From Luidia sarsii (Eukaryota > Echinodermata > Asteroidea > Paxillosida > Luidiidae): a stretch of 64,000 nt of DNA. The stretch is from the NCBI GenBank assembly GCA_949987565.1, contig OX465111.1, positions 10,497,202 through 10,561,201 of the forward strand, given 5' to 3'. Of this stretch, positions 526-60,200 are shown one piece after another (the first letter of the stretch is position 1; each line of letters begins with the position of its first letter). The notes beneath the pieces were generated by a model. That model was given only the letters and a program-made list of their open reading frames with translations, was not told the origin of the DNA and did not search any database. The translations under genes were made by a program, and so were the position numbers.

Positions 526-3500
526 GAAAAGAATTCTGTTTAACAAGAATGTACAGAAGTTTGTAAAGATGATGAGATAGTGTGGTCACCTACATGTACT
601 GTATGTATGTATACCGTAAAGATCGGCTAGGTATAATGCTATGTAGATTGTCTTGCACATATGTACATGTAGGGCCTACATGAACACATATTACGCTACA
701 TCTCTCCACTAACGGCAAGGGATATTCCAATCATAAATAAGTCATGAAAACCCAAGATCGTCATGAAGTACCGAAACAATTTCCCCAGTCTACGGAGGCC
801 TGCCATCTTGGCACTCTGGGAAGATCAAGGATCAATCGGATATCCATTAGAATATTAAATTACTTCTAGGCTGCACTGATTCAAAGGTAGTGGTTCAGTC
901 CTTGCTAAGGCTGTAGGGCACAAGAGGGAAAAGCTTCATGCTTGAAATTAGAATCCAACCAGAGGGCAATCATTTGCAGCTGCTCCATTTCTAGCCAGAG
1001 GTCAAATCCAGTCAAGCTAATCTAGCACCTACTTGATGCAAAGTTACTGACACACTTTTTCCCTTAAACAAAATCAATCACCATCTCACCTTTGTCTAGT
1101 AATGAATTATCCAAAGTTCCAAACTTGAAATCAGAATATTCAGCCGATAACATAACATACAACATTTCAGGTAGAATGAACTAATGACAAGGAATCATGT
1201 AGTCCTCAGTTCTGTACAAATGATGTACATTTCAGACAAAATTTTGAAATGGTCATTAATACTGGTATGAATTCAAAAGTAATTGAAGTAAGTCTTTTAT
1301 GAATGTACATAATGTAGAATGCACACTGTGTATTAGGACTTGTTAAGTTTATCGTGCACAGCCGAACAGGCCATCACAGGTACCGTAAGTTTTCAAAATG
1401 GTTCATTGAGAGATGCTGCATGTATCTGTGTAATCTAATTAATGTACACTGTACATGTATGTACAATGTCAGGCTCTTGCACAAGTCTGTTAAAATTCCA
1501 ATATTTCTGGCCTTTCTATAGTCAGAGAGGTTTGAACAAATTATAACTGAACATTCAGATACGTACCAGTAAGTTTTGCAGTGATAAGCATGCATAGTTG
1601 CATACACATGTACATGAACATGTACATGTACATGTACAGTATATGTATACATGTATATGTACAGTACATGTACAATGCACCATACATGGTGTTGTCACAA
1701 AGTCACAAACCATCCTGTATTATTCCAATTCAATGGATGGCATTCATCAGTCCAGATCCCAGGCTTTGTTTAAGTACACACACAAAAGTTTATTACATGA
1801 AAGTAGTGTTCATTCAATTGGACTGCTCAGTCTTTACGAGGACAGTCCTCCTTTTATTTCCGATTTAACTGGGGATACGTTGAATTCGCGGGTACGTGCA
1901 AAATGTCCCAAACCCTCAGGCCACATTGCTTCTTCCTAGTGAGATGCAATTGCTCTAAAGGGCACACTGCCCTGCAAACACTGATCTAGATTTGCTCCCT
2001 GCAATCCCAAGGGACAAGATACTTGGAATGCCGTTTATTTTCACTCAATGAGAACATAAGTGTATATTAGATCACGGCCAGGAAAAAAAAAAATCTCCTC
2101 GGGGGAAATAAAGGCAATGGACCATGATGTACACATGCAGATTCATGTCCATACACTTTGGGCCAACTGAGCCATCGCGATATTGCCAATGCCTGTACAT
2201 GTACACTGTACAGGTGTAGGCCTATATGATGTCTGTGATGACCTGTGCCGCCTGTGCTTATAGTAAGGTAAAATAAACACTGGGTGAGATTGGGGAATGT
2301 CACAATAAAAACATCATCGTGAATGCACTTTTCCTGGTTCAACCATCCTCAAAGTGCTGTTGTAGTGCCAATCACACATGTAAAGCATACAGTATATGTA
2401 TTTCTTAAGTCAATCTTGTACTCAAAAGCATTACCATAACCATCTTCCTCCGATCATAATCATCATCATTATTCTTAATTTCTTATCTCCCTTTTCACTA
2501 TTCTCACTAACGAGGCCATCGCCGCCATCACTGTCATTACCATCACCACCAGTGCACCAACATCAACGCTTCATCACCATTATCATCATCCCCATCAACA
2601 ACACCACCACCACCTTCACCACTGCCACTCAGAACTATATTCAGCAATGTTTACCTAATATACAAATCAATAGTCCAAATCAATAATGTCAAAGACACAT
2701 TACCCAAACCCTTGATATTGTGATAGATTTATGTGCAATATGTATTCTATTGAGGCCATAGCTGCTACACAAACAAATGAACTTGAGTTACCAGTATCGT
2801 AGTTGCTCCCAATGCTATGTACATGTATCTGATTGAGTTCAGTCTGTGGAGAGCATTGCAGCGCTGTTGAAATCATAATTACATTATTTGATATGGATGA
2901 TATGTGATGGTGTGGAAGTATAATTGAATCTAGCAAAAGACCATTAGGTGATGGTAGGTGACATGGCAATGCCAATACTTCATGCATATATTACTGTCCT
3001 CTGCTGTGTGTATTGCTACATGTACATAAAGGCCTTTGGTGCATCCCTGGGTCTGGCCAAAGCTGTACATGTATGTATGCACATTGCCAGTTTACATAAA
3101 ACAAAAATTGGGTGATGTTTTCTCACTAAAGTTTTGATTTTCTTGTGGAAAATAGAATAGCTACTTCATAATATAATTTCAACAATTGTTCATTGAAATT
3201 ATGTTTCAGTGTATATATTGAATTATTTGAATATGAAGGATGTCAAAAAACTGAGGCAAATCCTAAGTCTTAGCGTAAGCCAACATTGTGCAAGCTGCAT
3301 TGAAAGAGCCAACTCCGTACATGTTTTACATGTAGGTTGGAATCACGCCATTAGTCATGCTGCATATGAAGCCAATTCAACCAAGTGACATTCTCACTAT
3401 GCATGGAAATGTTTATGTATGTGCATTCCTAGAGAACAACGGTTCCAGATTTTTTGCTGTTACTTTGGCCCCTCCTTCAGGTCCATGAATCCAAGTAAAA

Positions 3501-4487
3501 ACAACAAAAATGTATAGTAAAAGAAATGACAGAATGGTAAAAAACGAATATACTGAAGCCATTTATATTGTACGTCCCATTTAAAGCTAAAACTTTTCCA
3601 TATAACAAACTTTTCCATATAACCGGTATGTACATGTAGAAGTGGAGACATGCTTTCCCCAAACCATTGCAGAAATTTGGCTTGGACGGCTACACATTTC
3701 GGGGGTGCTTTTTTCTTGGGGAATTAGCAGAAAATCCAATCAGTTTTCAGTATAGCTACAAGTACTGAGAAACTCTTTGTGTGTACCGTATTTGTTTTGC
3801 CTCGAAATTGAGTGTTTTTGTACTGCATACTATGGGAGCTCAATGTAGTGATCTGCAGCCATACATTGTACATGAATAAATACTGCCCTCTATCATCACT
3901 ACTAGCCATACGGACCCGTGTATATTACATGCATGGTGACAAGGAAGTGAGCCCTCTTTTGGCAGAAATTGTCTGCAGTATCAACAGAGGGCAGGTTTTA
4001 TCCCTTCTCCAAATTGCAAGTAAAATGTCATCTACAGGTACGTACATGTACCGGTAGATGACTATGAGCACAGTGTACACATAAATGCAAAAAAAAAATA
4101 CAGTTTTTGAGACTGATTTTAAAGTACAAGTAATGCACACATGCGTCCTTGATATTTTGCAATTGTTCAACAAATCCACATAATGAGAGGGATCTGTCAG
4201 GTAGTAAGTTAGATTATTTTAGCGTTTGGTTAAAAAAGAAAAAGGTCAGAAAGAGAAGAGGAGACATGGACTGAAGGCTGATAAACAAGGAGTAGGGAAG
4301 GTGAAGGACTGGCTGGGATATGTGTAGGTGGAGCAGTCTCAAGGACAGCAGTGAGAGGGGCAGAAATACAATGTTGTCTTTATCAACCCTGATGACCTTT
4401 AAAGAATGAAACGACAAGCAAATTGCAAAAGGCAGATAGCATACATGTATGAGTGTAATGCAAAGGCCATATTATATGTGGGTGTAC
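526..4487. other. Gene-free repeat-rich stretch
   Basis: No reading frame here resembles a known protein family. The stretch holds scattered TACATG runs and a low-complexity ATC/CAT-rich segment at about 2440-2640. It probably belongs to the long first intron of the SLO2/KCNT gene, whose first exon is at 23.9 kb, or to intergenic DNA. Confidence 0.6.
1606..1682. repeat. TACATG-rich palindromic microsatellite
   Basis: Nearly continuous hexamer-like TACATG/GTACAT repeats, each self-complementary with its neighbour, so both strands read alike. The same words recur through the whole window, for example near 15.2-15.5, 17.2 and 56.3 kb. Confidence 0.8.
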
Positions 4488-4678
4488 ATTTTACAAACTG
4501 ATATATAAACATTTTGCAAACTGCTTACTGACTTAAATTACCAATATGCTAAATTAAGTGCGCCTGACATTTCGATCCTAGCAGGACCTTTCTCAAAGGC
4601 AGAGAGAAAGGCCTTTGAGAAAGGTCCTGCTAGGATCCAAACGTCAGACCCGCTAAATTTTGAGATTTTACAAACTGA
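4488..4678. mobile_element. Penelope-like 3'-end inverted dimer with 14-bp target duplication
   Basis: The insert at 4502-4664 consists of two head-to-head copies of the element end found at 33.4 kb. The left arm reads in plus orientation through CGATCCTAGCAGGACCTTTC, and the right arm is its reverse complement, GAAAGGTCCTGCTAGGATC. A short AGAG-type spacer separates them. The insert is flanked by identical copies of ATTTTACAAACTGA at 4488-4501 and 4665-4678. The right arm is shorter than the left. No coding capacity remains. Confidence 0.8.
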
Positions 4679-5219
4679 AATAAAGGGACATAATATCTTT
4701 GGATGGGTTGCCTAGCTGTAAGTGTCAGCCCCGCCATTCACTCTTCCTCTGTTTCAAGTTGACATCTCCCAGACATTGCAATGTGAACCAGAAAGCATGA
4801 AGGTTGGTTGATTCATGGTTACACTAATCCCTGCTGTCTCCATGAGGAGTAGACAGGATAATGTGACCGTGATGAAGTGGGACAGTGTGACCTTGGGATA
4901 CCCTCAGACAGACTGCATTGTAGAAGTAAGGCCCAGTGCTCCAAGCCTCCAATGCCATGGTACAGTAGGTACAGTATACCCCTCACTGCTTTCCCTAGAC
5001 GGGAGCATTCATTGTGTTTGACAGATGAGCTAGCTGGCCAGCAGTATACACATCACCATATACTTGATTTCATCTGTCTGATCAGTCAACCACATACTGA
5101 ACCCTGGCAAGCACTGCCAACTGCCTCAGTGTGCTCCAGTATTTCACACTACCAGACTATTCCAACTAGCTACTTTGTATGGGGAAGCAGATACCATAGC
5201 CTCCTGCTTTGCCATAAGG

Positions 5220-9959: not shown

Positions 9960-10075
9960 TCTCCTGAAGACGAGCAGAGTTCACTGTTCAAAACGTCGAG
10001 TTCCTCCGGTTCTTTTCAGAACCACACTTACTCACAAAAGAGAATTTACATGGTGTCACTGCAAAGCTAATTTTC
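9960..10075 (+). mobile_element. Penelope-like end, family 2, copy 1
   Basis: Contains CTGAAGACGAGCAGAG, then a short inverted arm leading to AAAACGTCGAG, and downstream CGGTTCTTTTCAGAACCACA and ATGGTGTCACTGCAAA. The same module is at 20.57 kb (+), 59.03 kb (-) and 62.0 kb (-). CTGA(T/A)GA...GAAAC modules of this kind are known from the 3' ends of Penelope-like elements. Confidence 0.55.
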
Positions 10076-23137: not shown

Positions 23138-23438
23138 GGGCTCGACCTTAGCACTAGCCCGGCGGTCATTGTCTAGTAAAAACAGCTGCTGGCTAGTAAA
23201 TGACCCACTTTGCTAGCCCGGCGGACTAGTAACAAGTAGACAGCAGTGTGGCGGCAAAAAAACTGATACGGGCGGGGATGACAAAGTAGAAACTAATTAT
23301 TTGTTTTACCTGACGTAATTACCTTGTATTAAATTAAATATTAATTATACAGGACTAGTAAAACTTGCTGCGGGCTAGCAAAAAACTCAATTTACTAGCC
23401 CGGTGGGTAGTTAAAAAAAAATCAGCGCGAGGCTTGAA
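23138..23438. mobile_element. CTAGCCCG-type MITE, copy 1
   Basis: A roughly 300-bp element beginning GGGCTCGACCTTAGCACTAG and ending GCGCGAGGCTTGAAC. It contains multiple CTAGCCCG/CGGGCTAG words in both orientations, plus TGTCTAGTAAAAACAGCTG and AAACTAATTATTTGTTTTAC. The inverse copies at 53.99 and 58.64 kb have the same order of blocks. Confidence 0.75.
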
Positions 23439-33755: not shown

Positions 33756-34523
33756 TTAGTCATTACCCTCCTGGATGTTAAGACCATGTGGTTGAATAGT
33801 CCGAAGACGCTTCATCCACATTTTCTCACGGCTAAGACGGACAGCATTATTACGGTGACCAAGTGATTCTATGCCCAGTACACTCATGTCTGATATCGAA
33901 TGATCAGGGAGATTGAAGTGATACCCAACAGGGGTGTCCATTTTACCAGTTTTGATAGTAGACCTATGGCCATAGATTCGTTTTTTGAGGGTGTTTTTGG
34001 TCTCGCCAACATACTGAATATTACAAACTCTACAAGAGATGAGGTATATGATGTTTGAGGTAGTGCACGTGATAGAGCCATAGGTCGTGTGGGTAGTTCC
34101 AGAAGAATGTCCATTGAAAGAGTCTATTTCCTTGACATGTGTCTTGCAAACAATGCATTTCGAGGTACACTTAAATGTACCAAATTTGGTTGGAGGTGAA
34201 GAGTCCAAAGGGGGAACCTCTGCTCGGACAATTAAGTCACGCAGGTTACGGGGGCGCCTGAAAGCCAAAACAGGCGAATTAGGAATGGCTTCAGCCAGAC
34301 GATCCGAAGTGTGGAGAATATGGTGGTTTTCCTTAGTTATCTTCCTGATAGACCAACTATTATTATGTAGAGAAACGACACTGTCTGGCAAAACCACTTG
34401 CAAAACCACTTGCTCAAAAAAACTTGACTTACAATATTCCCCAAAATCATGAATTTGTGACGCGTATTTGTCAACCGGATGATGGTCAGCAGTGACAGCA
34501 GGCTCTGTGTACAGAACATGCAC
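33756..34523 (-). CDS. Penelope-like element C-terminal ORF with GIY-YIG endonuclease
   Basis: An uninterrupted 255-codon frame. Residues about 88-105 (FRRPRNLRDLIVRAEVPP) match the linker that follows the reverse transcriptase in Penelope-like elements. A C..C pair (KCIVCKTH) follows. The GIY-YIG nuclease starts at IIYLISCRVCNIQYVGET (about 158-175), followed by R/K-rich KKRIYGHR and the C-terminal MWMKRLRTIQPHGLN. In intact elements this nuclease nicks target DNA for retrotransposition. The polymerase half is absent here, so the copy cannot be autonomous. The labelled start is not a true initiator; the protein is a truncated C-terminal part. Confidence 0.85.
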   Translation of the reverse strand: MHVLYTEPAVTADHHPVDKYASQIHDFGEYCKSSFFEQVVLQVVLPDSVVSLHNNSWSIRKITKENHHILHTSDRLAEAIPNSPVLAFRRPRNLRDLIVRAEVPPLDSSPPTKFGTFKCTSKCIVCKTHVKEIDSFNGHSSGTTHTTYGSITCTTSNIIYLISCRVCNIQYVGETKNTLKKRIYGHRSTIKTGKMDTPVGYHFNLPDHSISDMSVLGIESLGHRNNAVRLSREKMWMKRLRTIQPHGLNIQEGND

Positions 34524-34640
34524 TTCACGATTTCTATATACACGTCACACATACCGTACGTGCCACAAAATCATGACTTATGGGAAAACTGTAAGTCCAT
34601 TTTTTTCGGCATGTGGTTGTGCCAGACCGTGGATGTTATT

Positions 34641-48200: not shown

Positions 48201-51200
48201 CAGCCTGCCTTTGTAGCTACTGGGTAATTGAGACAAAGCCCGAGGCCTAGCCAAAGCTCAAAGCCAAGCCTCAGGCCTAGCCAAAGCTCAAAGCCAAGCC
48301 TCAGGCCTAGCCAAAGCTCAAAGCCAGGCCTCGGGCCTAGCCACAGGCCCAAACCAAGCCTCAGGCCCAGCCACAGCCCAAACCAAGCTTCAGGCCCAGC
48401 CACAGGCCCAATCAAGCCTCAGGCCCAGCCACAGCCCAAAGTCAGGCCTCAGGCCCAGCCACAGCCCACAGCCAAGCCTCAGGCCCAGCCAAAGCTCAAA
48501 ACCAAGCCTCAGGCCCAGCCACAGCCCCAAACCAAGCCTCAGGCCAAGCCACAGCCCAAACCAAGCTTCAGGCCCAGCCACAGCCCCAAACCAAGCCTCA
48601 GGCCCAGCCACAGCCCACAGCCAAGCCTCAGGCCCAGCCAAAGCTCAAAACCAAGCCTCAGGCCTAGCCACAGCCCCAAACCAAGCCTCAGGCCTAGCCA
48701 CAGCCCAAAGCCAAGCCTCAGGGCCAGCCAAAGACTAGCAAAAGCCCAAAGCTGAGCCAAAGTCAAGGTTTGGAAAAAGTATGGACAGAAAGTTAGTATC
48801 AATTGTAAGTTTCGCAGAAAGGATAACTTAACAACAGTACAGTGGAGACAGTACAAGGATGGAAGAGAGATAGTGGGTTCTGACTACACATGTAGGTGGA
48901 AGGAAGGCAAGAGATGTCTAGGATTGTTAGATGCAACTGACCTCAATTCTCTCCAGAGGGTCCTCACGATCCTCATCTTCTCTCATTGCATAAAACTCCT
49001 TCTCATACTTCTTCAGCTTACGATTGCTAATCTGTTTGGGTGATAAAACAATAATTGATTAAGATTGTGACAAAGAGACTTGCCAAAAGAAATGCACTAA
49101 CAGGAGGTAATTTGAATGTACAAGTTAAATATAAATCAGTTTAATAATAATTTGTCATTGATTTCTTTGACTTGAATTGCAAAAGCTGCATCCACTTTGT
49201 GTGATCCACAAGCTTCTGTAGCGAGATTTACAACAATTAGTTGTTTGCATCTGAATGAAAGCAGGGATGTGATCCCTGGAGATATACGGCAGTTAATGGT
49301 TGAATTGCTTCTGACTGGCGCCCCACCCCGGCAGAGACTAGTTGACCTACATTGTATTTAGGAGGGCAAACATCTAAGGGCTGGACAGCTCAGATGGAAG
49401 AGCACTGGTACGTTAATCCAGAGGTCCAGGGTTCAATTCCCAATCCAGTCAAAGTTTCCTTTGCCAATTTTTCAATTTGTTCCCAGTCAGTTTTTCCTTT
49501 CTTTGTTTAAGTTAGATAATAGTTAAATATGTGCCTACAGGTGCAAAAGCAAGCGATGACTTTTGCCACTCTAAGGCAATACCACTTTAACTGTGAATGG
49601 AACACAGGCCGATCAGCGGGGCACCCACAGTGACAGCAATGGGTGCACTGGCCCTCATTTGGCAGGCATTTCCATGAAGTACAGTTAGCAAATCATTCTC
49701 AAACGTCAAAATTGCATGAAACACCACCTCAAGACAAAAATCAGTATCACTTCATGCTGTCAACTTCAACAGCCATTGTATCACAGGACCACATTGTACA
49801 CTTCCCATTACAAGACGGCTGAAGGTTTCTTTAGAACACTGATACTAACTTTCTAAGCCATCTTTTCTGCAGCATGGATGGATTTGAAAGTTTGTGAAAA
49901 TGCCAACGATATCTGACCCGGTACGGCATACTGAGAATTCTCGTCCAAATTTGAGTTTTCGAGATTTTCCCACGACTGCAAAGAGTACCTTATTAGCAAA
50001 ATCCAAAGTTACAAAACGGGAAATATGACAAACCAACTCGCAGTCACAGAAACCACTTTTGAGAAAAACGGCTTTAAAGTTTGAGGTCATGCACACGCAA
50101 TGCAGTGATTGCAGTATACCAAGGAGGTATTAGGCGAGCTGGAGGAACAGCTTCAATTTTCTTATCGCCCGCGTTACGTAACTAGCAGTCGGACCACCAG
50201 AACTTCCAAGTACCGCTCGCCGCTTATCGCGAAGATCTTGCCTGTGGCGACAGCCGTCCCTCCCTTTACAATGTGATGTTCGAAGCCGCTCAGTTAGCTA
50301 AGTGGAGAAACGAAATTTGAACAGACACACGGAGGCAATTCATAATGCCCATGCGCAGTGTCAGGAGGAAGCCATATTCCGTGCGTGCTCTATGCCATCG
50401 TGTTTGCCTAAATTTACTGAATCCATCGCTACTTCTTTCGTGAAAATCCGTCGAAAAATGGGTGAGTTATGATGTCTTTTTGTATGTATGATTTTGATTA
50501 TTAATTATTTTCACAGGTTTATTACTTCATGTTCCGATTCGACCCTGCGTTAACGAAATATATCATTGGAAAGAGCGTGAGTTTTCCTTGAAAATGCGCC
50601 CGGTTTAAAGAGTGCCCGGGAGTGCCCATACATTGATAATTGCATGGAAAGGGAGCGCTACATTGCATTGCGTACGGCACGGTGTTGAGGATTCGATTAG
50701 GATCGGAAGCTCTTTGGCTCTTTGGTTGGATGGAGTGCGCGAGATCGATATTAATTTCGGGTGTGCTGTATGAAAATACTGTGGTCAATGACTCAGTCAT
50801 ACCATTCATGGTTTTCTTTGATTGAAGTGTGCCTGCCCTGATATAAAAATAAAAAAATATTATACATTTTTAGCTCTTTATTGTCTTGAGTTGAAACTTG
50901 AAGATCGTTTATATCAATAATATATCATGTTTAGGCCTATATAATTATAAATCTTAATTCACTGATATGAGGTATAGACTAAAGACTAGTAATGATATGT
51001 TTTCAGATCAAAATCAGTTGATCAATGAAAGAATACTACCTGCGTTAGTGATGTTAAAATTTAATAATATTTATAACAACTACATCACATTTGCAAAACA
51101 AGTCAGATTGATTTTTGTCTTCAATGTCCTAATTCATATTCTGATCATTTGGATTGCATGAGTAAATCTGAAATTTACCAGTTTTGGTTTATAATGTACA

Positions 51201-54200
51201 TAACATGATTGTAGGATGTTTTGTACGAACATGCTGCTAATTCATTCACAATTGTTTTTATTATTTCAATTAACCTTGGGACAGACTCGGTAAAAAAAGT
51301 GGTCATTCAGTAATGTTTTTGATCATTCATTCAGTAATGTTATTGATCATTAAATGATTGTACAGTATATCTAGTTTGTAAGGTTTGCCATACATGTATT
51401 TCATACAAAACTCAATGCAGTAATATGAAAACATGTTGCAAACTGCTTTCTGAGTAAAATTACCAAAAGCAAATGTCAAAGGACCTTTCTCAAGGCAGAA
51501 ACTGCCTTTGAGAAAAATTGGAGGTCCTGTTAAGTTAAAATGTGAGGCCCCACTTGGTCCATTCGAGTGTTTTGAAGGACAGTTGCAGACGCTGAACAGT
51601 TTGCCAGATTTGGGGAACATCGGGACAACTGTGATGTGGAGTGTATTTTGAAGACACTATGTGATATAATTATACATTTAAGTCTAAACTTTTTGTTCTG
51701 TTTTGTTTTACTTTTTTCTTATATACAGACATCCATGTTGAAACTACATGGGAGTTCTTCAAGTTGCTGGATCCTGCATTGCTACATCTCTGAGAGCCAA
51801 TGTTCAAAGGCAGTCGAAAAAATCCCCACTAAAAGTCCATCCTCTCCCCAAGTCCTCAAAGAAGTAAAAACGGTCCAATTTCCATCCCAAATTGCGATGG
51901 GAATTATCAGTTGTTCTTTTCCATTTTGTCCTCTCTCCTTCCCCTTGTATCATTGGCTGTATCTTTGATATGTTTTCCGAAATACAAGCAATATATTCAC
52001 ACGCACAATTGGTATGTTTTGTTAATAACAATTGGAAATTTTGGAAGTGGGAGTAGATGATATCAAGCTCATTATTTAATGTAAGATGAAATAAGATCGA
52101 GGAAGGAAATGACGTCAGGAAGTGCAATAGACTAACAAACGTTTATTCGAGGATGAGCTCTTTAATAAATACTTTAATCATGTACACATATAGCATTCTT
52201 CAATCATCAACATGTGTATGTAAGTATTTAGCTTACATCAAGGTTACAACCACTGGAGTTGCACATGGCACAAGTCTAAGGGCACATTATTTTGTTCATT
52301 TAAAAAACCAATCTTTAGTAATTAAATTGTTTGAGCTGTACATTAATCTTCATTCAACTGTCAGAGTAGTTCAACATTTCCTCTTGTCAAATGTCTACTG
52401 ACTTGCTATAATCCACCAAATATGTCTTAGGGACATGTAATACACAAATGTCACTGAAATAATGCAATTTTGTTGCAATCATATGGACATGTATGTATCA
52501 ATCTTTTATCACCATTTCAAAATAAGGTCTTACAAGTTTCAGTATGAACAGCATGTCATTCTAAAATCTGAAATTGGGTTTGACTGTAACTCGGCATTTC
52601 ACTTTGGCATGTGAAGTCTACATATGTATTCAACAAGATATTTGCACATAAAAACAAAAAAAGAATCCTGTACAGTGGAAATTGTAATAATTCGCAATAC
52701 AAATTATGACAATATCTGATTCGAACAAACCAAGCATCTGATTTGAATAAATATTTAATATTTATGAAATGTATAAATACTGTATGAATGACATGAATAA
52801 GTGAAATGGCTCAGTAAAGAAACTTTCTGATATGAGCAATGTAAACTGAATCCTGCATTTACCATTCACTTCTTGCTAAGTTCTTTTCGAAGTCCTTTTT
52901 CTCCTCTGCTAGATCTATCGCATTGTTTCTTCTTCTCAAGATAAAGTTTCAAAACAGCACGGAGTCTGATCTCAATCCAGTAATTGACAAATGTTCGGAG
53001 CAGTCCTTCACTATTTGCCAATTCATCTCCATGAAGGGCATCCCACATGTTATTTACATACACATTTGAAATGAGTTTCTTGTATAATACCTCCTTGATG
53101 GACTTGGAACGACCTTCCACAAGGAAGTTGTCAGACAGGTGTTTCCGTGTTTCTACTTCCATTGCCTGAAACAATCTGAAGCAGGTGTCGTTGACAATAA
53201 ATAAGCCACCACGATTTTGGAGTCTGGTCCACTCGTTGGTGTATTCCAAAAAGGAGTCTACATCTGTATGGTCTTCTTTGACCTTCAATTTTTCTAGGAA
53301 TACAACATACTGTTTTGCTGCGTCTGACGACAGTTTTCTGTATTTCTTCATGAGGGCGTATGGGATGAACCCTGCAATGTATCGTAACACTTCTTGGTCA
53401 TGAGTTGTGTATTCCTGTTCTTGTTTCCTTAATTCCTTATCTGTTGGGACAATGTTCCTCCTTTGTAAAACAATCTCAAGAAGCTCCTTCAATGTCTCCT
53501 GCAAAACAATATTCTTCATAAATTCACTAATATCTATGTCTACTTGTTCTGTGAGAAACTTGCTCCATTCACCCCATAAACTGTCGCTTAACCTTAAACT
53601 ATGGAAGTTTTTCCACATCTCTGTGTTGGCTGGTGTGCCAACTGGCAAGTTCTTGCCACTATCCACTACCTTCCATATTTCACGTAGGAGGTATGTTGAG
53701 ATGTGCTGGAGGGTGTCATCATCACACAGCTGTAGTTTCTGACTGATGGCAGACATATCCTCTCCTACTGGCGTTGACATGACCATCGAGCTGTTGCTGC
53801 ACATCGATCTCTGCAGCATGCTTACTGCCTCGGGAAGAAGATCGTCAAGGCTCACAGCAGGCTCGTTATGCACTGTAGGAATTCAAGAGTAAAATAAATC
53901 ATAAGTTGGGTTATAAAACATCACATTTAATGGCTCAATACAACATTGGGAAGATCAGAACACATTGATGTCCACAGTTTGTAGATGAACTCAAGCCTCG
54001 CGCTTAAGGTTTTTGTTTACTAGCCCACCGGGCTAGTAAATTGAGTTTTTTGCTAGCCCGCAGCAAGTTTTACTAGCCCTGTAAAATTAATATTGAATTT
54101 AACACAAGGTTATTAGGTCAAGTAAAACAAATTATTAGTTTCTACTTTCTCATCTCCGCCCGCATAGGTTGTTTTTGGCACCACACCGCTGTCTACTTTT

Positions 54201-57200
54201 TACTAGTACGCTGGGCTAGCAAAGTGGGCCCACAGCTGTTTTTACTAGACAATGACCGCCGGGCTAGTGCTAAGGTCGAGCCCTAATTATTGGTGATGAC
54301 ACTGATGATAGAAACCTCATGTTGAAATCTTACGGTCTTTGGACATTCATTAACAAAATACTTCATGTTAAAGACAGAAATGTGATAGCATACCTTGCAT
54401 ATGTCTTCTTGGTTTGCTTTGTTTTGATGACCCAGGTAGTGATTTTGAACTTCTTGTAGCATCAGATGTTGTAGCATCAGATGTTGTAGCATCAGATGTT
54501 GTAGCATCGTTATCTGCTGCTGGGACAACATCTATAAAAAGTAATAATACCAAACAAATCATCAATCAACAGTAACTATTATTATAACAAATATGGCAGT
54601 TAATCCATGGAGGAATAAGAATCTATCATTACTCAGTTGGAAGGGAAAAAAATGCAGACATTCATGATTCATGCACAAGAAAGTTCGTAGTAGCAGGAAT
54701 TTAAAACAATTATTTTATTTCAATACACACAACGTATATGGTGGAAAATAATTCTACACCCACAATAGATCAATCATTTGTGGAAAATGGTCATTTCCTG
54801 TCAAAACCTAGCGCGGCTTCTTGCCGAAAAAAATCTGGTTTGCGGGAGCTGAGGTTTTCACGTTCAGTAAGTATTTTAGGATTGGCCAAGTGCATGTTTT
54901 ATACCATCATGGAGGAAGGAAAAGGGAAAGGGAAAAGGGTCCATGTAAATTTTACAGTGTAGTCGGTTCACGTCAAAAAAATCATGATCTTGGGAAAACT
55001 TATCACAATAAATAAAAGTAAAACTAAGCAAAGGTTCCAGTACAACTACAATTACAAATGATCGTAGTACTAGCCGAGTATAGAGCAAGACTCTATTTAT
55101 TGCCGTCCGAGTATAAACTTGGACCTTAAATCTTACCATCAACTCCGATTTCCAAATCGTCAGGTAGAAGCTCAAGGTCCTCAATATCTCCCCAGAAGGT
55201 CACCTCTTCGTCAAGATCCATTGTGAATTAAGTAAGATCAGAGAAAGATTCGCTCGAGAAATGAAGAGAATGAACGCCGAACTCAATGGTGTAAAACAGC
55301 CCACGCGTTTCCGTCGAAGCTTCTGAACATTCGGATCTTACTACGTGTACAGTGTACAGCGTGGGGCTATAAAAACTGCATGTGTACAGCGTGCTTGTGT
55401 ACATGCGCATGCGCAGAATCCCCGACTTTGGATTTTTTTTTGCGCGAACAAGAGAACAGCTGGGGCGTATCACACTGCGGCCACCCACTGGTTTTACGAG
55501 GCGGCTTCTAAGCTCGCATAAAGAACTTTCGAGAGCTGTTCCTCCAGCTCGCCTAATACCTCCTTGAGTATACATTGTACAAAAGTATGTGCTGACACCC
55601 TTACGAATTCCCAAATTTTTCAATATTTACAGACATTAGTTGAACAATTCCTTCTGACAGATGATTCTCTTATGAATAAGCTTTCCAAAAAAGAAAAGAA
55701 AAATGAATGGATTTTGACCTGCATTTTGACAATACTTTGACTTTTGATGCCGTTAACTCGAAAAGGACTTTTGGAGTAGATGACTCATTAGGCCATCTTA
55801 GGTCACATACGTAACTTGTGATTTGGATAAAGGCGGTAGTTCTCTGTAAACTCTGTTGTTGTAGATTTGGATTCCACATACCTTAGTACTGAGTGCTGAC
55901 TGCATGAGCTCCTGGGCACTCTCTTCAGTGCGATATCGCTTGGGCAAGGTTACCCGGAAGTACTTCAATACGCCCTCAAAATCCTGACCCAAAAGTTCCT
56001 TTTTAGCAGCCTGCAAATGGACAGGAAAGACATTAACATCAGATGCAGGGACATACATGTATGCATTATGATTACAATGTACAGCACACAAGTACTTACA
56101 ATATGTTAAGCAACCACTGCAATGGTACATGGTAGGCATACATCTGCAATGATAGCTTTGGAGGAAATGTGATTCCAGTGTGTAGAGAGATTTAGTGCAG
56201 CATCAAATCAATGCAGAATGGTGACGCTACATCTACTTTCAGCATGACATGTACATTTGTACATGTACATGTATGATTGTACATGTAACTGCTCATCTAC
56301 AGTACAGTACATTGTACATGTACATATCACACTGGCATCAATCAGATGGTGCTTCTACTAACTGGCAAAGTCTAACTGGTATAGTGCAATCCCAATGACT
56401 CACCATCCATATAATGTAGATGTCAAAGGGTATATCAACATGTACTTCTCAACAAGTTAGTGGTTCAGAGCAAGTGGTCATAATTCTTGCTACTACATGT
56501 ACATGTAGTATTGGCTTGTCTGACTAGAACACTTTGGGCTACATAGGGCCACTACGGTAGCTGCTAGTCCTAGGGTACATGTACAACACTGAGGGGTCCC
56601 TGTGGTCTCACTTGAGTCTTACTCAGAAGGCAGGGCACATGCCACAGGAAGGGGCAGATTTCCTCCCAAACAATACAGTCTGTAACTGCATTAGGCTTAG
56701 GTGCAGTCTGGTAGGTACAGTAGTCCAGTAAGTAAGTCAGTGTGCTCAGAGAGAAGACATGGCAGGAACTAGGCAACAGGATTCCAAGCATTACAACTTG
56801 GAAGGAGAAGGGTGATCAAAGTCAGGCGATGTCTCGTTGCTGGTAGCAACGTTTCGGTTGCTGGAACTGCTAACCTTCATCAGGCAACTGAAGAAGGTTA
56901 GCAGTTCAGGCAACTGTTCAAAGGTTAGCAGCAACCACCAACCGAAACGTCGCTGCCAGCAACGAGACATCACATGACTTTGATCACCCTCTTCCTTACC
57001 TGTACCACCGCGATGAACAACTCCTTCATTTCTATTACAACTTGGATAACTGAGCATGTCTTGGGGTAGCCTCTACCCTAATACCTCATAGTGATCTGAT
57101 TATATTCACAAGTATACATTGTAGAGGGATCTCTAATGACAGGAAAATGAAGTGATTGTCAGCGAAATGACTTTCAGCAAATCATGGTCCTTGCACATAG

Positions 57201-60200
57201 ACTGGGATCCTCTGTATTTCATTGTTGATAATTGTTATTGGACTGGACTTGGTAAAAGTTACCGAGAGGAAAAAAGGGGTAAAGCTGTCCAGAGTGTAAC
57301 TTGATATAGAAAAAAGTACCCATTATCTTAGAAGTCAGAATGCTTCTATAAAAACAAGTTTACAAAAATATGGTTTAAAATGATCATTGCCAATCTGCAA
57401 GTGAAATTTGACAGTAAAAAAAAAACAATTCATGAATTTTCTGACTGGCTTTAGAAAACAAAGGGCACAGCGATAATTAACTAATCATGGGAAAAGCTCT
57501 GTGCAGCGTGTGTAACAGAAAAAGAGGCAACTGAAATGATGATCTTACCTTCAGTAAAGCCACTGCAATATTGAATACAATGGGCATTCCCTGGTGAAAA
57601 AGGAACAAACCAGTGATTACAATCAGAGTCACCCAAGAATTTCACACATTGACAGTAATAAGAGAACATCCAATATGTAATCATGCAAAATGGTCAAATG
57701 CAATTGAAGGCATAAGTCACTGCTACATGTATGTGCATGCAGTTTCAGTCTGTTGCATGATGCGTACAAACTATTGGTACTGCTTCTATTGATAAAGCAT
57801 GGTGTTTGAGAAGGATCTGTTGAATTACATGTACAGTCAGAACAAATGGTAGTTTGTTGTTGTAGTTGGTGTTGTAAATGTCACAGCATTAGTTTTGGAC
57901 TGGTTCTCGTTACATCATGTGCAATCTTCTTGCGTTTAGACGATTTAGACAGTAGACACCACCTACCTCCATCAGGAATAGGTCCATGATATGGAATACT
58001 GTGTACAAAGGGAAGCGTGCTGTATACAGAGTCAGGAACCACTGGGATGCGTACATGTGGGCCTCAATCCCAATGTGTACAAAATGGGAAAACAAATCTG
58101 GAATATTGTCCTGCAAAACAAACCCGTAATATCTGCATTAGTTTCTTTCCAGTACAAATACCAAATCTTAAAATTTAGTGGGCCTGACGTTTCGATCCTA
58201 GCAGGACCTTTCTCAAAGGCTGCCTTTGAGAAAGGTCCTGCTAGGATCGAAACGTCAGGCCCACTAAATTTTAAGATTTGCATTTTGGTAATTTTAGTCA
58301 GTGAGCAGTTTGCAACATTTTTGTATATCACTTCAGTACAAATACAATTTTTTTTGAAAATAAGTCAGTGGCAATACCGCAATTAAAAGTTGTGGGCCAG
58401 CATGAAATCTATTTGGCTACTTGTAAGATGACTCTACATGTAAGTGGCCTGCAGTTGATTTCACCAAACCCATCGTAACTTACGATCAATCACAGAACAA
58501 TGAACGATGCACAGAAACCATGCAGCCTATCCCAACTTAAGTTGAGTTACAATGCATCGTAAGGCTTTGTGAAATCCAGCCCTCCCCGGCTGACCAAGTA
58601 AAAAGGTTACAAGCAAGGCTGCAAGGCATTCATTAGCCTAGCCTGAGTGTCCAGAAGCCTACCGGGCTAGTAAATCAAGTTTTTTTGCTAGCCCGGAGCA
58701 AGTTTTACTAGCCCTGTATATAATTAATATTGAACACAAGGTTATTAGGTCAAGTAAAACAAATTATTAGTTTCTACTTTCTCATCGTTTTTTTGCCGCC
58801 ACACTGCTGTCTATTTTTTACTAGTCCATCAGGCTAGCAAAGTGGGTCATTTTACTAGCCAGCAGCTGTTTTTACTAGACAATGACCCCCGGGCTAGTGC
58901 TAAGGTTGAACCTGCTGGCCTATAACATATCTACATAGTGCTTGTATCCCTGCCTATGAAAAAGGTCCCGCTAGGTTCAAAACGTTGGGCTGTCTACACA
59001 TTTGAGACTTGCATTTTCAAATGGAAGGTTAGTGGTGACACCATTTAACAAATCTCTTCTGAGAAAGGAGCCAGTAACTCAACGGTTCGGGCAGTGTGTA
59101 CTCTGCCCATCGCCATTTTGGTCATTTTGGTCATTTTGGACATTTTGATCATTTTGGTCATTTTGGAAATTTTCATCATTTTCATCATTTTCGTCAATTT
59201 GGACATTTTGGTTATTTTGGATTTCACTAAGCCCTACGATGTGTTATATAACTCAACATAAGATGGATAACCCATCGTAAGTTGTGGTAGGCCATATGGT
59301 TTCTGTGCATCGCTCATTGTCTTGCAATTGAACATAAGTTACAATGAGTTTTGTGAAATTGACAGATTGTCTCAGCACGGCCTCACCTCCATCAGTCTCT
59401 CTAGCTGGTAAAACTTGACGTGCAGCTCCACAAAGCTGTTCATGAACAGGTCTCTCAGGTGGTAGTCATACATGATCTTGGTCAGGACCGCAAAGGCCTG
59501 CTCCTCTGGCATCTGATGGCAGTCAATGGATGAAAGCGGTAAGAAAGAAGCCATCTACTTGATCTGGGGCCAATTTCATAGAACCACTTAAGCACCAACG
59601 TTTGCTTCAGCACAAAATACACGTAGGACCCCCTTGCCCACCAAAAGTTCCCCTTTGTATCATACCAAAGTAAAGAATAGTGAAATACATGTACAAGTCA
59701 AAAGCAATTAACATCATTTCAAAGTGTGATTTGTAATTCTGTTTACACAAGGAGGGACTTTCATGCTTAAAGCCCCTACACAATATTGGTAAGATCGAAA
59801 AACAGAAATGTTCACAGATTTACATGAAACTCATACAGTTTGAAGATGGTTATGGTAGAAACCTCTCACTGAAATATTTCAGCCTAAAATGTTGTATTTT
59901 GGGAGAAAAGAGTAAAATAAATCGTTTATGAAGTGGTTTTCACGAATTTCTCGAGACTCAGTTGGCGGATTGAGCTGAAATTTTCACAGGTGTGCTATTT
60001 CATGCATATGTTGGATCAGACAACGTAGGGATGCTACTCTTTGACCTCGACCAATGTTGTGTAGGGGCTTTAAGCAGCAGTATGAAATTAGCCTCTGGGT
60101 CCAAGATTAGAAGGCTGCTTAGTGCTTAAAGCTGCTAAACACAATATGTCTTCCTCGGTTCAACAGGATCAGCAACTTCCCTCTGTGTGGTACTTCTTGC

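Follow-up and report, generated by a model that had tools for sequence, protein, structure and literature searches.

We analysed a 64,000-nucleotide stretch of the Luidia sarsii genome (GenBank assembly GCA_949987565.1, contig OX465111.1, positions 10,497,202 to 10,561,201 of the forward strand; hereafter the window), in which a DNA transposon occupies positions 50120-55566. We conclude that this element probably belongs, as an internally deleted and non-autonomous member, to a P-superfamily lineage in which the transposase is split over two convergent genes, one for the catalytic chain and one for the C-terminal domain (CTD). In the window copy the CTD gene is retained but most of the catalytic gene has been lost, and the paired layout of the two genes recurs in all 10 intact relatives that were compared.

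The window element is a deletion derivative of a complete copy

The element ends in perfect 33-bp terminal inverted repeats (TIRs; 50120-50152 on the plus strand, starting with CA, and 55534-55566 on the minus strand; CAAGGAGG), which are 100% complementary, and sequence comparison identified a 7-bp target-site duplication (TSD), AGTATAC, on either side (50113-50119 and 55567-55573). With three or fewer mismatches allowed, the TIR end was found at two places in the window and never in 100 dinucleotide shuffles. Between the ends lies a minus-strand frame of 409 amino acids (exon 1, 55221-55137; exon 2, 54531-54394; exon 3, 53872-52866), conceptually spliced at GT-AG borders throughout. An earlier note on this DNA, made from its letters alone, had described these termini, the duplication and the spliced frame, and we find all three as it gave them. 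It had also called the element a complete DNA transposon; the ends agree with this, but the interior is that of a derivative that has lost ~3.56 kb, including the greater part of the catalytic gene.

We searched the assembly of the window (470.9 Mb, 227 contigs) and found at least 13 near-full copies, that of the window included, at 99-100% identity, a number that is a lower bound because just 40 of the 3254 first-look candidates were scored. The ends are therefore not unique in the genome, and the identity among copies bears out the earlier view that the window copy is young. When 20 loci were fetched and their boundaries compared, both ends were located in 16, with an exact 7-bp TSD in 13 of these and an inexact one in L018, L026, and L027; the TSDs among the copies include GTTCTAC, GTTACAC, and GTTGAAC. 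One locus (L009) holds a complete copy of 8991 bp with perfect TIRs and the TSD GTTACAC. Relative to this copy, the same deletion (L009 positions 1623 to 5183, with a 2-bp overlap) is seen in 14 loci, i.e. the 13 near-full copies and L014. L011 and L013 carry separate deletions (at 1803/5354 and 1738/5369, respectively), L012 has only the right part left, from 5035, L010 is an older, broken copy, and L015 is a fragment. Two of the loci, L019 and L020 on contig C19, lie ~50 kb apart with TSDs and flanks that are mutually reverse-complement, and are probably, to judge from these flanks, a single insertion that is counted twice because the host locus has been duplicated in inverted orientation.

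The additional DNA of L009 is predicted to encode an 859-amino acid protein in six exons on the strand opposite the CTD gene, in the order zinc finger (CRLCG...HPRHLCGSCYRKL), helix-turn-helix (HTH), N-terminal part of RNase H, candidate GTP-binding insertion, and C-terminal part of RNase H, with a stop codon 42 residues past the RNaseH_C match and no CTD. The two RNase H parts exceeded the Pfam cut-off (RNaseH_N, 3.7e-26; RNaseH_C, 1.1e-6), the HTH match fell under it, and the GTP-binding insertion, encoded by the exon between the two RNase H parts and scanned in L009 only, scored 21.4 bits against a cut-off of 24.8. P-type RNase H domains were likewise matched in L029 and L030; in the window copy the domain is absent, having been deleted. 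As indicated by comparison with L009, what the window copy has left of the catalytic gene, all on the plus strand, is the ATGG of exon 1 (50458-50461, with the donor GTGAGT at 50462), ~12 nucleotides from the start of exon 2 (51729-51740, preceded by an acceptor CAG), and, beyond the deletion junction at 51740-51741, approximately the last 41 codons in the post-RNase H tail of the last exon (51741-51867, with the native stop at 51865-51867 as read by eye). The retained start and the retained tail are not in the same frame, and a Pfam scan of the left half of the window copy found no domain. We discarded a spliced 64-amino acid microprotein on the plus strand of this half: the complete copy has GTG in place of its ATG at 50392, and across the deletion its end falls out of frame.

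The retained gene encodes the CTD of a P transposase

The 409-amino acid protein is the non-catalytic CTD of P transposase, the equivalent piece of which, in the fruit-fly P element, is reported to contact target DNA. Its first exon is acidic; its second encodes TSDAT repeats (L009, L012, and L028 have 15 nucleotides less here); and its third encodes a helical N-terminal domain, the P-type CTD, and a basic tail. By comparison with the P transposase structure 6p5a and by hhalign, the fold and motifs of this CTD family match those of the P transposase CTD. A first predicted structure, built from five sequences, had a pLDDT of 57 and an unusable fold, and for a second one 6p5a was matched by a VIA-align second look only and was absent from the Foldseek top 50. 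Further, hhalign of the stand-alone CTD family against the full 816 amino acids of L032, a conventional P transposase from the same genome, aligned residues 646-804 only (E 2.3e-5, Prob 76), and against a second one, L031, residues 668-742 only (E 3.3e-4, Prob 38); the homology of the CTD is therefore visible, modestly, in sequence too. The YIAG...RGGL motif noted earlier in the 409-amino acid protein is also present in the CTDs of L031 and L032, and the protein has no obvious DDE triad, as had been remarked, because it is the non-catalytic domain. A structure search of BFVD gave no match at E 0.001, a sequence search of the PDB retrieved no P transposase, and no relatives were found either in viral and prokaryote collections with protein queries or in viral contigs with a 25-base piece of the TIR.

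The two genes are paired in diverged relatives

We next consider the layout in other families of the genome, where searches with the transposase and with the CTD gave 73 and 58 rows, respectively, of which 34 were compared with 35. Each of the 10 intact relatives (frame of at least 600 amino acids, no stop, at least 37% identity) had a CTD match downstream on the opposite strand, at a gap of 2065-3078 bp. Judged by frame length and identity alone, these ten loci would represent about six families. Of the 21 compared places that reach 35% identity, 15 had a CTD match, always convergent (two of the 15 use one CTD match), and the remaining six have stops in the transposase frame. At 22-30% identity, by contrast, none of 13 places had a CTD match within 10 kb. 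Two of them, L031 and L032, were read and are P transposases of the conventional kind, in which a single frame spans RNase H and CTD, although that of L031 ends early in the CTD. In the three families that were examined, the catalytic frames end after RNase H, with the CTD encoded separately by a convergent gene. We also note intact stand-alone CTD frames of other families at C7:2342785, C14:8035183, and C12:12489315, with no compared transposase place within 10 kb, and additional CTD-only derivatives may thus exist.

Two sister families, C21 and C7, are represented by whole elements of 8607 bp (TSD TACAAAT) and 9410 bp (TSD GTAAAAT), respectively. Their TIRs start with CATGGAGGTAGA, so that CA-start TIRs and 7-bp TSDs are found in these families also (CATGGAGG). 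In both, an exon 5' of the CTD frame and on the same strand encodes an acidic stretch and a PHD finger (L029:604-1074 and the C7 element, L030/L036), with Pfam E values of 1.5e-6 and 2.6e-5, both over the cut-off. This finger, part of the CTD gene of a P-type transposon, is ING-like: of the 21 PDB entries that the C7 finger matches, 20 are of the ING type (ING1-5, YNG1, YNG2, PHO23, and Png2). ING-type PHD fingers bind histone H3 trimethylated at lysine 4. In C21, GT-AG splices conceptually join the exons for the PHD finger, a linker, and the CTD into a single 510-amino acid frame. For C7, twelve open three-exon CTD models, of 510-529 amino acids, are possible; a stricter attempt gave none. 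In contrast to these two families, exon 1 of the window family gave no match to a PHD finger.

Alternative roles of the CTD gene

A first alternative is that the CTD product is a regulator, i.e. a fragment that competes with or titrates the transposase in the manner of the KP and 66-kDa repressors of P elements. P elements are indeed reported to make truncated repressor proteins (PMC7776569), and copies with a CTD frame are more numerous than complete ones: of the 20 fetched loci, 16 have an intact CTD gene (it is broken or partial in L010, L013, L014, and L015) and one has an intact catalytic frame. However, the 66-kDa repressor is described as retaining the N-terminal DNA-binding part without the C-terminal third (PMC7776569), the reverse of the 409-amino acid protein. 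Further, the catalytic frames of the three families examined themselves lack a CTD, and the CTD gene accompanies every one of the 10 intact relatives. We therefore consider a regulator unlikely.

Somewhat less probable still is that the stand-alone CTD gene is a dispensable passenger, spared by chance in the deletions. Non-autonomous copies generally require only their ends for movement, and among the copies amino-acid changes in the CTD gene are not rarer than silent ones. The comparison of L009 gave 1 changed site of 1215 coding and 19 of 2356 noncoding (p 0.004), and the six other aligned copies gave p values from 0.08 to 1 (L028 was left out of the alignment). We do not claim within-genome purifying selection on the 409-amino acid gene, as only L009 is significant and the changes are not mainly silent. 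Against a passenger, CTD relatives at 25-53% identity retain the frame, and the N-terminal helical domain was retained in four of four diverged members tested; long-term selection is therefore indicated, though not necessarily in the deleted copies. The earlier suggestion of a non-autonomous, Pack-type element with a captured host gene, to which the reported capture of host genes by animal TIR transposons (PMC8277862) and the domain-less left half of the window copy would be congenial, is highly improbable and finds no support here because the same CTD gene adjoins, and is convergent to, the transposase in the complete element and in diverged families, and because the fold and motifs of its product are those of the P transposase CTD. 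The split P-superfamily transposase thus remains the explanation that we prefer.

Placement among known transposons

The lineage has a P-type (TNP-like) RNase H and CA-start TIRs with a 7-bp TSD, in keeping with the P superfamily (7-8 bp), and the P-like reading in the earlier note, with a 7-bp duplication, was right. The P superfamily is also characterized by GTP as a cofactor and by cleavage with a 17-nt stagger. We file it as P superfamily with a split transposase, and not as P element proper, because tests for a fused CTD and for a THAP domain found neither; the long catalytic frames of the three families gave no THAP match at E up to 1 (L009) or 0.01 (L029 and L030). With the P element/THAP9 group (Drosophila P, Galileo, and zebrafish Pdre2) it shares the RNase H and, more weakly, the HTH, and it may share the GTP-binding insertion; both also have the CTD fold, internally deleted non-autonomous copies, and the same type of ends: the Pdre2 TIR is reported to start with CATACC (PMC10983969), and the Galileo TSD to be 7 bp, GTANTAC (PMC4168063). 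It differs in that the CTD lies on its own opposite-strand gene, in its different N-terminal zinc finger, and in the helical domain and, in two families, the PHD finger that the CTD protein has in addition.

RAG-like transposons also have two genes, RAG1L and RAG2L, described as convergent (PMC7204232) or head-to-head (PMC4411706), and RAG2 is reported to have a PHD finger (PMC4411706). Moreover, the N terminus of the L009 transposase (L009:5647-7662) matches Pfam RAG1_imp_bd (2e-6; 28.0 bits, cut-off 23.3), with zf-AD under the cut-off; the match is limited to one of the three families examined. If RAG1_imp_bd corresponds to the Chapa domain, as we assume, this is a lead, not proof, on the origin of the RAG1 N-terminal region. 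The core is, however, P-type and not Transib-type, the accessory protein is a P CTD and not the beta-propeller of RAG2, and the TSD is 7 bp, against the 5 bp reported (PMC8355894), so the element falls outside the RAG/Transib group. N-RAG-TP of Aplysia is reported to have RAG1 N-terminus-like sequence, as the L009 transposase does, but to consist entirely of it (PMC8355894). PIF/Harbinger elements resemble the present lineage in that movement is reported to require two element-encoded proteins (PMC2836001), a transposase and a separate ORF1 protein. Neither a stand-alone CTD nor a PHD partner of a P element came up in a literature search, which also found no earlier description of the convergent two-gene layout in the texts available to it; Repbase lay outside the search, and the elements could be catalogued elsewhere. 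The second protein of PIF/Harbinger is not known to be a domain split off its transposase.

Genomic context and other features of the window

Dada, which the earlier note had mentioned for its 6-7-bp duplications, is reported to insert in multicopy small RNA genes (PMC8869645). The window copy shows no such targeting: it lies in an intron of RABGAP1, and the closest Rfam match, a tRNA ending at 49451, is ~660 bp off. For the intron, support comes from one tested flank, where the TBC domain of RABGAP1L/RABGAP1 structures is matched (5e-11) by a frame at 55801-56202 on the minus strand; the exons on the other side were read by eye only.

Within the element, the terminal 13 bp of the TIR (CAAGGAGGTATTA) are present a third time at 53085-53097, in exon 3 of the CTD gene, where they read IKEVL; the maximum count over 100 shuffles of the window was 0, and this copy may reflect chance, act as a binding site, or have given rise to the TIR. 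Both element ends (50120-50869 and 55120-55619) are CpG-rich (observed/expected of at least 1.0 in 250-base steps), with a GCGCATGCGC palindrome at 55405 in the right one, a pattern that resembles two inward promoters. Intron 2 of the CTD gene contains a separate nested repeat of ~300 bp (53991-54284), with two extra copies in the window (23138-23437 and 58656-58912) and more in the genome at 91-94% identity. Elsewhere in the window, a frame at 33759-34544 has a GIY-YIG domain (Pfam 6.7e-6) and is perhaps of a Penelope-like element, and Rfam identifies a histone 3' UTR stem-loop at 10003-10047 on the plus strand.

A proposed two-subunit transposase

We propose that the two proteins would assemble into one transpososome, in which the catalytic chain would bind the element ends and cut, and the CTD chain would join RNase H and the GTP-binding domain in trans, holding transposon and target DNA. 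The 409-amino acid subunit would stand in for the covalent CTD, with its basic tail facing the target DNA, and the PHD finger, in families having one, may dock the complex on methylated histone H3 in chromatin. The window copy, unable to make the catalytic chain, would move in trans with a chain from another copy and could still supply the CTD chain. We see the case as evenly balanced for a stronger form of this proposal, namely that the transposase of the lineage is an obligate two-subunit enzyme made from convergent genes, with a catalytic chain in which a RAG1-like or ZAD-like finger replaces THAP and a target-DNA chain formed of the P CTD and, in some families, an ING-like PHD finger reading H3K4 methylation; that this RAG1/RAG2-like design was reached independently; and that deletion derivatives, the window copy among them, carry the targeting subunit only.

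The P transposases that we found described, in the texts available, are single chains. Here, the chain appears to have been cut at the position of a flexible linker in the cryo-EM structure, with both halves retained as separate genes, and what the CTD does in synapsis and in the choice of target can therefore be tested by omitting one protein. The layout parallels that of the RAG transposon, with convergent genes, a PHD finger on the accessory chain, and, in one family, a RAG1-like finger on the catalytic chain. Overall, the lineage would be an independent case of a single-chain transposase becoming a two-subunit recombinase, and its separate targeting subunit would offer a natural handle on target choice.
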